From an uncultured Oscillibacter sp. (GTDB taxonomy: Bacteria > Bacillota > Clostridia > Oscillospirales > Oscillospiraceae): 60,377 bases of DNA. Under the pieces are notes generated by a model. It ran no database searches and was not told where the DNA came from. It saw only the letters and a list, made by a program, of their open reading frames with translations. Below are positions 3-3,571 of the stretch, one piece after another. The DNA lies in contig CAMBKF010000008.1 of assembly GCA_945868085.1 (NCBI GenBank), positions 1-60,377 on the forward strand. Direction: 5' to 3'. Every line of letters starts with the position of its first letter. The stretch's first letter is position 1. The translations under genes and the position numbers were made by a program.

Positions 3-1979
3 CGTCCCCGGGACGGCATCGACTTCTTCCCCCTGAGCGTGGACTTCGAGGAGAAGATGTACTCCGTGGGCCGCATCCCCGGCAGCTTTAACCGCCGCGA
101 GGGCCGCCCCGGCGAGAAGGGCATCCTCACCAGCCGCGTCATCGACCGGCCCATCCGCCCCCTGTTCCCCTCCGATTTCCGCAACGATGTGTCCGTCATG
201 TGTACCGTGATGGCGGTGGATCACGATTGCTCCCCCGAGGTAGCCGCCCTCATCGGCACCTCCGCCGCCCTGGCCATTTCTGACATTCCCTGGAACGGCC
301 CCGTGGCCGCCCTGAAGGTGGGCCTGGTGGATGGAAAGCTGGTCTTTAACCCCACCAGCGAGCAGCGCAAAGTCTCTGACCTGGACGTGACCGTGGTGTC
401 CACGGGCAAGAAGGTGGTCATGATCGAGGCCGGCGCCAACGAGGTGCCCAACGATGTGATGTACGAGGCCATCCGCATGGCTCACGAGGAGAATCAGAAG
501 CAGATCGCCCTCATCAATCAGATGGTCGCCGAGATCGGCAAGCCCAAGTTTGACTATCCCCACGCCGACTTCAACCAGGAGCTGTTTGACAAGATCGTTC
601 ACGACTTCATGGACGAGGCCAAGGCCGCCATGGACACCGACGACAAGAACGTCCGTGAGGCCCGCTGGAACGAGATGATCGAGCACTGGCACGAGAAGTA
701 TCTGGAGGAGTATCCGGATATGGACCAGTACCTGGACGAGTTCACCTACAAGTTCCAGAAGAAGATCGTGAAGGCCTGGCTGCTGGCGGGCCACCGTGTG
801 GATGGCCGCCAGAAGAATGAAATTCGTCCTCTGGACGCCGAAGTGGGCGTGCTGCCCCGGGTCCACGGCTCCGGCCTGTTCACCCGCGGCCAGACCCAGG
901 TGCTCTCCGTCTGCACCCTGGATACCCTGTCCGCCAATCAGAAGCTGGACACCATCTGGGAAGAGACCGAGAAGCGCTACATGCACCACTACAACTTCCC
1001 CGGCTACTCCGTAGGCGAGGCCAAGCCCGCCCGCAGCCCCGGCCGGCGTGAGATCGGTCACGGCGCCCTGGCTGAGCGTGCCCTGCTGCCCGTCATTCCC
1101 CCGGTAGAGGAGTTCCCCTATGCCATCCGCGTGGTGTCTGAGGTCGTGTCCTCCAACGGTTCCACCTCCCAGGGCTCCATCTGCGGCTCCACCCTGGCAC
1201 TGATGGATGCCGGCGTGCCCATCAAGGCCCCTGTGGCCGGCATCTCCTGCGGCCTGATCCAGGACGGCGACGACTTCACCACCTTTATCGACATCCAGGG
1301 CGTGGAGGACTTCCACGGCGAGATGGACTTCAAGGTGGCCGGCACCAAGAAGGGCATCACCGCCATCCAGATGGACCTGAAGAACGACGGCCTGACCATG
1401 GAGATCATCAAGAACGCTCTGGACATCACCTACGATGCCCGCTGCCAGATCCTGGACCAGGTCATGCTGCCCTGCATCGCCGAGCCCCGGCCCGAGGTCA
1501 GCAAGTACGCCCCCAAGATGGTCACCATGCACATTGACCCGGACAAGATCCGCGAGGTCATCGGCAAGGGCGGCAGCGTGATTCAGAAGATCGTGGCAGA
1601 GTCCGGCGCCAAGATCGACATCGACGACGACGGCACCATCCACATCGCCTCCCCCGACGCCGAGAGCTGCGCCATCGCCAAGAAGTGCATCGACGACATC
1701 GTGTTCGTGCCCGAGGTGGGCGCCCTGTACTATGGCCGCGTGGTGCGGCTGATGACCTTCGGCGCCTTCGTGGAGCTGGCCCCCGGCAAGGATGGCCTGG
1801 TGCACATCTCCAAGCTGGCCGACCACCGTATCGAGAAGGTGGAGGACGCCTGCAAGGTGGGCGACATGATGTGGGTAAAGGTCACGGAGATCGACGAAAA
1901 GGGTCGCGTGAACCTGAGCCACAAGGATGCCATGAAGGAGATCAAGGCCAAGGAGGCCGCCGGCGAGCCCATCAAGTAA
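3..1979 (+). CDS. pnp: Polyribonucleotide nucleotidyltransferase, 5' end cut off
   Basis: This is polynucleotide phosphorylase, which degrades RNA 3' to 5' using phosphate as part of mRNA turnover. The frame is open from base 3 and enters in the middle of the first RNase PH domain (GRIPGSFNRREGRP), so the true start lies upstream of the window. A second RNase PH domain follows (HRVDGRQKNEIRPL). Near the C-terminus are a KH domain with the GKGGSVIQKI loop and an S1 domain (YGRVVRLMTFGAFVEL). About 658 codons are present against roughly 700 for a whole protein. A GTG at 39 could be read as a start, but homology continues upstream of it. A strong terminator follows directly, so this is the last gene of its transcription unit. 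Confidence 0.97.
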   Translation, partial: RPRDGIDFFPLSVDFEEKMYSVGRIPGSFNRREGRPGEKGILTSRVIDRPIRPLFPSDFRNDVSVMCTVMAVDHDCSPEVAALIGTSAALAISDIPWNGPVAALKVGLVDGKLVFNPTSEQRKVSDLDVTVVSTGKKVVMIEAGANEVPNDVMYEAIRMAHEENQKQIALINQMVAEIGKPKFDYPHADFNQELFDKIVHDFMDEAKAAMDTDDKNVREARWNEMIEHWHEKYLEEYPDMDQYLDEFTYKFQKKIVKAWLLAGHRVDGRQKNEIRPLDAEVGVLPRVHGSGLFTRGQTQVLSVCTLDTLSANQKLDTIWEETEKRYMHHYNFPGYSVGEAKPARSPGRREIGHGALAERALLPVIPPVEEFPYAIRVVSEVVSSNGSTSQGSICGSTLALMDAGVPIKAPVAGISCGLIQDGDDFTTFIDIQGVEDFHGEMDFKVAGTKKGITAIQMDLKNDGLTMEIIKNALDITYDARCQILDQVMLPCIAEPRPEVSKYAPKMVTMHIDPDKIREVIGKGGSVIQKIVAESGAKIDIDDDGTIHIASPDAESCAIAKKCIDDIVFVPEVGALYYGRVVRLMTFGAFVELAPGKDGLVHISKLADHRIEKVEDACKVGDMMWVKVTEIDEKGRVNLSHKDAMKEIKAKEAAGEPIK

Positions 1980-2078: not shown

Positions 2079-2107
2079 TTGACAGAATTCGCCTAGTTTG
2101 CTATAAT
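2079..2107 (+). promoter_or_regulatory. Consensus sigma-A promoter for the 25-codon ORF
   Basis: TTGACA (2079-2084), a 17-bp spacer and TATAAT (2102-2107), with a TG one base upstream of the -10 (extended -10). Both hexamers match consensus perfectly. Transcription would start near 2114, just inside the left arm of the inverted repeat at 2113-2122. Confidence 0.85.
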
Positions 2108-2112
2108 TTCGT

Positions 2113-2310
2113 CAGGCGCTGCACGAACGGCAGGCGGTTGGCTACACCACCCGAAAGGGGGTGCTGCTTATGCGGATCACTTTACATATCGGACGGTTCA
2201 CCGTGACGATCATTGTGAAAAGCAGAAACCGCCACTCGGCAAAGTGACGGTTTCAAGGCTTCGCTTTGAACTCTTAACTAATCCGAGCTAACCGCTTGTC
2301 GCAGCGCCTG
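2113..2310. repeat. Inverted repeats closing the small-ORF module
   Basis: CAGGCGCTGC (2113-2122) is repeated inverted without mismatch at 2301-2310. A second pair (2134-2143 with 2287-2296) matches in 9 of 10 positions, and the tenth can form a G-U pair. A transcript crossing the module could therefore pair its 5' and 3' ends. Inside are a ribosome-site hairpin with a GAAA tetraloop (2145-2163), a hairpin with arms 2225-2231 and 2248-2254 containing the stop codon, and a third hairpin near 2251-2270. Confidence 0.8.
2170..2247 (+). CDS. 25-residue peptide, possible type I toxin-like product
   Basis: The ORF starts with ATG at 2170 and encodes a short peptide with a hydrophobic, beta-prone first half (ITLHIGRFTVTIIV) and a basic tail (KSRNRHSAK). 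An AAGGGGGTG ribosome site lies 7-15 bases upstream, but it falls in the 3' arm of a GNRA-capped hairpin (2145-2163), so translation may be restrained by RNA structure. A perfect promoter drives it, and a second perfect promoter drives an opposing RNA across its 3' end. I do not recognise a named family. The small hydrophobic-basic product, sequestered ribosome site and overlapping antisense transcript together resemble type I toxin-antitoxin loci. The toxin function is inference. The ORF could instead be an incidental reading frame in a structured RNA. Confidence 0.5.
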   Translation: MRITLHIGRFTVTIIVKSRNRHSAK

Positions 2311-2313
2311 TCT
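2217..2313 (-). ncRNA. Candidate antisense RNA opposing the small ORF
   Basis: A minus-strand transcript from the promoter at 2320-2347 would start near 2313. It meets a terminator-like hairpin (arms 2248-2254 and 2225-2231, with an inner CACT/AGTG pairing) followed by TGCTTTT. The predicted RNA of about 95 nt is fully complementary to the 3' part of the small-ORF transcript, including its last eight or so codons. This is the geometry of 3'-overlapping type I antitoxins such as B. subtilis RatA. Confidence 0.5.
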
Positions 2314-2319
2314 ACGTTT

Positions 2320-2347
2320 ATTATAGCAGAAAATTGGGGGCTGTCAA
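2320..2347 (-). promoter_or_regulatory. Consensus convergent promoter for the antisense RNA
   Basis: On the minus strand: TTGACA (2342-2347), a 16-bp spacer and TATAAT (2320-2325), again with TG one base upstream of the -10. It faces the promoter at 2079-2107 about 200 bp away. It points away from the AraC-type gene, so it is not that gene's promoter. Confidence 0.82.
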
Positions 2348-2393: not shown

Positions 2394-3571
2394 TTAGATC
2401 CGGCCCTTTTTCTGCCGGTATTTGCCCGGGGAGACCCCGGTGTATTTCTTGAAGACCCGGGCAAAGTAGCTCTGATCCTCAAAGCCGCAGGCGTGGGCAA
2501 CGTCCACCAGGGAGGCATTGCTCTCCAGCAGCAGCTGCTGGCTCCGCTTTACCCGGAAGCGGTTCAGATAGGCAAACAGGCTCTCCCCTGCCTCGGCCTT
2601 GAACAGGCTGCTGAGGTAGCCGGGACTGAGGCAGACCTCCGCCGCGATGCTCTCCAGGGTCAGCTTCTCCGCATAATGCTGGCGGATGAACCGCTGGGCG
2701 TTGAACAGGGCGTTGGAGTGGCGCACCTGCTGGAATTCAAAGGTATAGTCCATGAACCGGCGCAGCACGGAGGTAATCCAGCCGTAGAGCTGGTCCACGG
2801 TGGAAAACTCCCGGATGGCGGCCAGGTAGTCGCTGCGGCCGAAGATCTCCTGCACGTCCGCCCCGGCGCTGACACACGCCCGGGAGAGCATGACGGACAG
2901 CTCCATGACCCGGTGGCGCATGGCCTCCGTGTCGCCGCCGTTGGCAGCGTATGCCTGGGAAAACACCCGGTCCATGAGCTCCTTGGCCCCTTCCCGGTCC
3001 TGCTGCTCGATAAGCTGCTGCAGCTGGCGCTCCTCCTGGAGCGACGCGCCTAGGTCCGCCGTTTCCTCCTGCTCCACCCGCAGGGCCGCAGGCAGCGGGC
3101 GGAAGCCCTCGCTGAGCATGCCCTGGCAGAGGAACTCCAGCAGCCGGCCCAGAGTGTCGGACTGCTCCCGGCTCCACTGGGGGACCGGGTCGATGCACAC
3201 GGCGCTGGTCAGCTCGGCCACTTGCTCCTGGGCATCCTCCCGGTCATTGGTGAGAAACGGGCCGGCGGTGATGCCTCCCTCCAGCTCCCCGGCCTCCGAA
3301 CATATGCACTGGGCCACAAAGGCCAGGCCCAGGGGGCAATAATAGAGATAGGGGCTGTGCCAGCGGTAGGATTCGTTGCAGCCGTAGGCATGGGTGGCCC
3401 GTGCGCGGCAGCGGATATAGCTGACTCGTCGCAAAAATCCGGCAGGGGCGGCGTATCCCGCAGGATCTGAATATCCCGGGTGCTCACCGTCCGGCAGTCC
3501 ACGCCGCAAAGCAGCCGGATGTCCTGGCAGCACTGCCTGCAGCGCTGCAGCTGCACTTTTGATAACTGCAT
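2394..3571 (-). pseudogene. AraC-family regulator with PocR-like sensor, frameshifted
   Basis: The C-terminus is a clear AraC DNA-binding domain with two helix-turn-helix units (LTLESIAAEVCLSPGYLSSL and SLVDVAHACGFEDQSYFARVF). The N-terminal half resembles PocR-type ligand sensors, with conserved cysteines and YRWHSPYLYYCPLGL. The natural start is ATG at 3571, preceded by GAGAGGAGGGG, and runs MQLSKVQLQRCRQ. That frame leaves the PocR homology after PDFCDES, which resumes in the -1 frame as SYIRCRARA. The join lies near 3419-3432 and fits loss of one base. The gene is therefore broken, or the sequence has a one-base error. Its position next to the kinase/isomerase pair suggests it once controlled them. 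An in-frame ORF from 3533 has an unconvincing N-terminus. Confidence 0.75.

Follow-up and report, generated by a model that had tools for sequence, protein, structure and literature searches.

The element downstream of pnp in this stretch of DNA is, in our judgement, very probably a type I toxin-antitoxin module. It would consist of a toxin mRNA with its two ends locked together, an antisense RNA and a toxic beta-hairpin peptide, on an RNA chassis that other loci share. The window (the whole stretch of 60,377 nucleotides that was analysed) belongs to a Vescimonas-like MAG. The element has a size of about 270 bases and occupies the gap between pnp and the gene of an AraC-type regulator. These are its parts and its neighbours:

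39-1979, plus strand: pnp.
2079-2107, plus strand: promoter of the proposed toxin mRNA, TTGACA-17-TGnTATAAT, 12/12 consensus bases.
2114-2318, plus strand: proposed toxin mRNA of about 205 nt, with both ends inferred.
2114-2143 (2114-2122 and 2129-2143), plus strand: 5' arm of the mRNA lock, pairing with 2286-2309 in the predicted fold.
2145-2163 (approximate), plus strand: GNRA-capped hairpin over the Shine-Dalgarno (SD) sequence AAAGGGGGUG, in the predicted fold.
2170-2247, plus strand: 25-codon ORF, MRITLHIGRFTVTIIVKSRNRHSAK plus TGA, the proposed toxin, under purifying selection.
2217-2313, minus strand: proposed antisense antitoxin RNA of about 97 nt, with both ends inferred.
2225-2254, minus strand: antisense terminator hairpin of 13 pairs, overlapping the last ORF codons and the stop codon.
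2255-2285, minus strand: variable middle segment of the antisense RNA, a possible specificity region.
2286-2310, plus strand: 3' arm of the mRNA lock; its minus-strand reading is the 5' segment of the antisense RNA.
2320-2347, minus strand: promoter of the antisense RNA, TTGACA-16-TGnTATAAT, 12/12 consensus bases.
2394-3533, minus strand: AraC-type regulator, named from its sequence.

The original prediction placed two perfect convergent extended -10 promoters around the ORF. Both agree with the consensus at every base and carry a TG before the -10 box. On the plus strand, TTGACA lies at 2079-2084 and TATAAT at 2102-2107, with a spacer of 17 nt. The minus-strand boxes lie at 2347-2342 and 2325-2320, separated by 16 nt. 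Three promoter-like sites are present in 1900-2500, against a mean of 0.3 in shuffled sequences. The antisense RNA had been expected to overlap the 3' end of the ORF, and its terminator hairpin does cover the last codons and the stop. It had also been expected to end after about 95 nt at a hairpin followed by a T run. The hairpin (2254-2225) and the length stand, at about 97 nt if the start is assumed to lie about 7 nt past the -10 box; the T run is interrupted (TTTCTGCTTTT). This hairpin is symmetric and has a weak T tail on the plus strand, with a U-rich tract at the distal end.

A DNA search of the own genome gave five places including the window, that is, four further matches. The same kind of search in 60 genomes gave matches in 12, the own genome included, although in G012 and G056 they span just 22-36 nt. 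The cultured V. fastidiosa MM35 accounts for 9 DNA matches in that search. A 35-base degenerate pattern of the peptide found 20 stretches in IMG/VR viral contigs, several of them near-identical to one another, and all 20 carry the ORF and then the hairpin. The copies in the own genome, the 12 of 60 genomes and the 20 of 20 viral stretches make a family, so the window element is not a product of chance. In genome contigs the pattern found at least 116 stretches, and L113 and L141 (Brachyspira) are false among the 80 listed. The hosts among the matches listed are Oscillospiraceae, Lachnospiraceae, Pseudoflavonifractor, Evtepia, Oscillibacter, Dysosmobacter, Blautia, Roseburia, Agathobaculum and a Peptococcaceae MAG. 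The homologue set used below starts from 133 untruncated, non-identical matches, with 20 truncated matches and 16 duplicates set aside. It comprises 129 loci after removal of the false L113 and of three matches outside the genus in which the ORF reads past the usual stop (L130, L172 and L198).

The codons indicate that the window-type ORF is real and under purifying selection. Nine 25-codon ORFs, fetched by DNA similarity, were compared over codons 2-17. Their 36 pairs show 215 differences at third positions, 52 at first and 28 at second positions, and 80% of the changed codons are synonymous (29% expected). The residues left free by the search pattern are likewise kept in the 86 pattern-found ORFs of 25 codons (R2 in 85, G8 in 82, I/V15 in 80 and V16 in 79), while the third bases vary. 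Codons 17 and 20-22, in or beside the overlapping hairpin, are nearly invariant at every base. The 133 untruncated matches listed, L113 among them, encode 110 distinct peptides, and ORF length differs by whole codons between homologues.

The peptide had been called hydrophobic and basic. The basic tail is there, but hydrophobic and polar residues alternate in the rest, and the peptide is not a hydrophobic helix. In a 17-residue hydropathy window, all 106 distinct strand-type peptides stay below 1.6. When both moments are computed over windows of 9 residues, that for a strand is the larger one in 106/106 strand-type peptides and in 11/35 transmembrane peptides. For L152, a member of 30 residues, AlphaFold2 with a 56-row alignment gives a beta hairpin with strands 2-7 and 10-15; its scores (block pLDDT 93, 84 and 63; pTM 0.33) are weak evidence at such a length. 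The window peptide itself is probably shaped as a beta hairpin, with a basic tail. In PMC8309996, membrane type I toxins are given as alpha-helical with a charged C terminus, and a table legend there also mentions a beta-sheet colouring. The window peptide has the basic C terminus and departs from the common alpha-helical transmembrane trait.

The window peptide has no family in Pfam, NCBIfam or PHROGs, and the Pfam model Hol_Tox (PF16935) does not match it at E up to 10. A profile search of the PDB with the peptide gave nothing at E up to 1. At gathering scores Rfam finds nothing in the window, and below them its one match in 2040-2400 is RNAI (E 0.43). Searches of open-licence PMC papers listed no description of the family and gave no occurrence of the peptide string. 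The suggestion that the family may be undescribed therefore holds for the libraries searched.

The original prediction also proposed a search of related genomes for the ORF and both promoters. The ORF is under selection, as described. Past the ORF, 126/129 homologues have an opposite-strand promoter of at least 9/12, compared with 10/129 after shuffling. On the toxin side, our own scan finds one of at least 9/12 in 89/129, so closeness to the consensus is commoner on the antisense side. Across 75 sequences, 9/12 pairs of the terminator hairpin survive a change of both bases in one sequence or more; since the homologues share ancestry, this is not a count of independent events. One arm of this hairpin encodes the C terminus of the peptide, yet its pairs are kept through two-sided changes. 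By its conservation, the antisense gene is real. In two genomes with three antisense copies each, the flanks have identities of 0.88-0.94 and the middle only 0.56 and 0.64 (the window copy is not one of these). It is what would be expected if antisense specificity resides in the middle segment, which is possible. A conserved hairpin in that segment was rejected, as its folding is no better than that of shuffles (mean z -0.13, 95 segments).

A covariance model of the antisense gene (R1) finds 26 places at 45 bits or more in 9/32 genomes of the genus. An intact ORF accompanies 15 of them; the other 11 are solitary antisense genes, with the 5' half of the toxin gene missing (L005, L014, L018, L019, L020, L021, L025, L026, L027, L028 and L270). 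Because these 11 lack the toxin gene, the antisense RNA may serve some independent function. Some of them retain the last ORF codons. They are possibly anti-addiction RNAs or decay products. A disrupted ORF with the RNA structure kept had been named at the outset as an observation against the module; none of the 26 was seen to keep the 5' half of the toxin gene with a broken ORF. Matches of R1 under 45 bits are outside this count; L214, one of them, was read and has no module. One of the 15 loci with an intact ORF, L004 (own genome, C42), has its promoter and 5' UTR replaced by unrelated sequence and keeps the ORF and the antisense gene. In a subgroup (L012, L034, L045, L102, L140 and L163), the antisense RNA carries an inserted, anti-SD-like CCTCCTT near its 5' end; the toxin mRNA accordingly gains a second AAGGAGG close to the 3' end.

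These observations support the proposed 3'-overlapping type I layout well, as far as sequence can tell. We find a small conserved ORF with a ribosome site and an overlapping antisense gene with its own promoter. The ORF is selected, the antisense promoter conserved, the terminator covarying and, as described below, the SD sequestered.

R1 also brought up loci that encode other peptides. A 5'-UTR profile made from strand-type loci only finds the transmembrane-peptide loci L276 (E 2e-12), L274 (3e-11) and L273 (3e-10). The same profile finds the Hol_Tox loci L288 and L304 (E 5e-8), and its best reversed-sequence control is at E 0.37. It is weak on the Hol_Tox loci L294, L295 and L303 (E 8e-5 to 2e-3) and not significant on L297/L301. 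The peptide of L288 is Hol_Tox, with 41.6 bits against a Pfam cut-off of 23.3. An ORF-based search fetched 12 Hol_Tox loci; five have no ORF by our own filter, and the rest make six distinct loci. Five of the six (L294, L295, L303, L304 and L297/L301) combine arms anchored at CGG with a 9-12/12 antisense promoter; L293 has no CGG-anchored arms. The lock z of these five runs from -0.9 to -7.4, with L304, at -0.9, hardly beyond shuffled sequence.

A model of the 5' UTR (R2) has matches in 50/394 genomes of the order, the own genome included. We took a census of the ORFs behind 79 chassis loci, 63 of them found via R2 (places with E about 1e-6 or better) and 16 via R1. It gives 34 strand-type ORFs, 37 with a transmembrane segment, of which one is a Hol_Tox peptide, and 8 others, which are probably wrong start choices. 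Rows with E above 1e-4 and the 12 Hol_Tox loci of the ORF-based search are outside the census. The 48 rows of R2 included transmembrane and Hol_Tox loci, so the census is not independent evidence; the strand-type profile is. Classes were assigned by the N-terminal motif and our own hydropathy cut, and all 35/35 transmembrane peptides reach 1.6 partly by construction. Antisense promoters stand behind 77/79 census loci. Genome G155 holds different peptides on one chassis (L288 plus L032, L036 and L039). Since different peptides, some of them in one genome, share one chassis, the toxin reading is supported by association. The chassis loci L384, L361, L387 and L353 carry very short transmembrane peptides, such as MDYIVIVLVLLLLLIIAIKK, and those of L384 and L361 have no Pfam family.

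The strongest alternative is a non-toxic small regulatory peptide under an antisense RNA, for example a modulator of a membrane or an enzyme. Its likeness to a toxin-antitoxin system would then come merely from the need of both for tight control. Such a regulator would suit a peptide that lacks the helix seen in known membrane type I toxins, as well as the persistence of solitary antisense genes. It accounts poorly for a chassis that also bears many unrelated transmembrane peptides and one of the Hol_Tox family. The multi-copy, patchy spread and the presence in viral contigs are typical of toxin-antitoxin modules, and would be odd for a dedicated regulator. We regard this alternative as improbable. 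If the element is instead a toxin-antitoxin module, the homologous chassis could be a cassette that exchanges unrelated toxins, both helices and beta-hairpin micro-peptides. The window peptide would be the first toxin in the style of membrane type I toxins that has no transmembrane helix and acts as a beta hairpin. We consider the chances of this wider proposal evenly balanced.

The outer motif CAGGCGCTGC (2113-2122) and its inverted copy GCAGCGCCTG (2301-2310) had been described as a terminal inverted repeat. The inverted copy is present, and we read the pair differently, as a lock between the 5' and 3' ends of the mRNA. The predicted fold of the window toxin mRNA has -89.2 kcal/mol (z -5.7), with the ends paired over 24 bp. 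In 88 two-promoter loci, where transcribed segments alone were compared, cognate arms pair at a mean of -44.9 kcal/mol and non-cognate arms at -31.3 kcal/mol. Cognate pairing beats the non-cognate median in 88/88 loci and is the best of 31 in 50. When the imperfections of the repeat are read in the plus RNA, 123 are G.U and 16 A.C (64 loci versus 4). Wider segments from 128 loci, some of which include promoter bases, give 122/128 better than the non-cognate median and G.U 238 versus 44. The G.U excess is spread over many offsets, with positions -2 and -5 supplying about half. The transmembrane-peptide loci, also compared over wider segments, repeat the signal (37/37 cognate; G.U 83 versus 22).

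The G.U asymmetry fits pairing within the plus RNA and would be unexpected for the ends of a DNA element. It bears on RNA pairing rather than on transposition as such, and it weighs against a miniature transposable element with terminal inverted repeats, inward promoters and a remnant ORF. The inverted terminal motif and the several copies per genome would agree with such an element. The module stands behind pnp in 2/25 genus loci with 700 nt downstream (the second, in G018, carries an MPIT-type peptide), and the empty site in the other 23 would agree as well. However, the arms have different spacers, and the perfectly paired blocks outside the CGG anchor nearly all differ (72 distinct of 88 loci). 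Together with the deviation in one strand and the purifying selection on the ORF, these features make a transposable element very unlikely. A structured non-coding RNA pair with an incidental ORF, which the strong conserved RNA structure might suggest, is scarcely credible given the codon-position pattern, the start, SD, stop and peptide kept across divergent loci, the length changes in whole codons, the different ORFs that take the place of this one at other chassis loci, and the finding of no frame-shifted ORF with a kept 5' region among the 15 ORF-keeping genus loci.

The ribosome site had been placed inside a GNRA-capped hairpin, and the window fold contains it as CACCACCC-GAAA-GGGGGUG, with the loop GAAA. 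At least 5/6 SD bases are paired in 112/119 homologues, compared with 51/119 when the upstream part is shuffled; these 119 are the loci of the 129 whose SD was recognised by our own pattern. In predicted folds of the window mRNA, the unpaired probability of the SD is 0.01-0.03 in the full, the 3'-trimmed and the antisense-bound state. Opening of the SD through 3' trimming is not supported, as the SD stays paired in all computed states. Folding alone gives no account of how translation is switched on, because the SD is paired with or without the 3' end and the antisense RNA. By analogy with the upstream helix of par of pAD1 (PMC7472228), the lock may serve to protect the mRNA. Alternatively, it may conceal a standby site for the ribosome. 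The distal end of the mRNA has a U-rich tract in 83/126 homologues, versus 26/89 at the mirrored place. The computed duplex of mRNA and antisense RNA has -201 kcal/mol, and the mRNA alone -89, so the antisense RNA should displace the lock.

The proposed toxin-antitoxin module would work as follows. The plus promoter would give the toxin mRNA of about 205 nt, with its ends locked in a 24-bp stem and its SD in the GNRA hairpin. The free mRNA would be stable but poorly translated. From the convergent minus promoter, an antisense RNA of about 97 nt would cover the final codons with the stop, and all of the 3' arm. It would pair without wobbles where the 5' arm of the mRNA uses G.U, displace the lock and presumably deliver the duplex to RNase III. 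The antisense RNA would be the shorter-lived partner; once the locus or the prophage is lost, the leftover mRNA could be translated. The peptide of 25 residues, probably a basic-tailed beta hairpin, would then harm the cell. In related genomes, the RNA parts of the chassis would drive several different peptides, some of them TxpA/Hol_Tox.

On our reading of the reviews, type I toxins are usually sought through peptide similarity or a transmembrane helix. The window-type family escapes both searches, and a search by chassis gives a handle on many unannotated modules of gut Clostridia and phages. The chassis also lets the exchange of toxins on a fixed antisense control be studied directly. With the family itself, one could ask whether a peptide shaped as a beta hairpin is able to act as a type I toxin.

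Among known systems, txpA/RatA (TxpA/BsrG, Hol_Tox PF16935, from the skin element of B. subtilis) resembles the window in its short-peptide mRNA with an antisense RNA and a 3' overlap. PMC3531473 describes an overlap of about 120 nt, a prophage setting and a very strong SD. The Hol_Tox loci of Oscillospirales share the RNA chassis of the window. Unlike txpA/RatA, the window peptide has no Hol_Tox match and no transmembrane helix. The par locus of pAD1 (Fst/Ldr) also has convergent promoters. Its 5' stem-loop sequesters the SD, and the outermost 5' bases of the toxin mRNA are buried in a helix (PMC7472228); the window has a predicted SD stem-loop and a sequestered mRNA 5' end. In par, however, direct repeats put the antitoxin over the translation start. 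The window has an inverted repeat instead, and its antisense RNA stops short of the SD. Neither Pfam nor NCBIfam gives the window peptide an Fst/Ldr match.

Paired 5' and 3' ends of the toxin mRNA, predicted here, are also reported for aapA/IsoA and hok/Sok in PMC6733600. In aapA3, the SD is masked by a pairing over a long distance, and it is the trimmed mRNA that IsoA3 binds, whereas in the window a local hairpin hides the SD. The CD/RCd systems of C. difficile, as presented in PMC6563280, are clostridial like the window, with overlapping convergent genes and several modules in prophages. Their antitoxins are mostly cognate-specific according to that paper. The toxins have 34-59 residues and a transmembrane domain, a description that sets the window peptide apart.

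In a class-wide search with the peptide profile, 28/391 genomes have a match at E 0.05, the own genome included. Scores of the 27 rows from other genomes are 16-27 bits, and 15 of these rows lie in frames of more than 200 codons. One row, L061 (G428), was read as a solitary antisense gene. Named phage records gave no match to the element. Among plasmid records, matches occur in V. fastidiosa only, and the incomplete gene table that PLSDB gives for V. fastidiosa pMM35_01 lists no feature under the match. A phage gene lies near the element in 4/7 viral contigs whose neighbours were searched (tape measure in L055, tail sheath in L044, small terminase in L045 and tail terminator in L052). In the viral contig of L057, the module is beside a protein of 917 residues with a weak match to a DNA-methyltransferase PHROG, and this neighbourhood is possibly a defence island. 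Neighbouring copies of the module are seen at L106, L117, L146, L164, L166, L346 and, in G018, around C2:309000. At L346, the adjacent modules carry different peptides.
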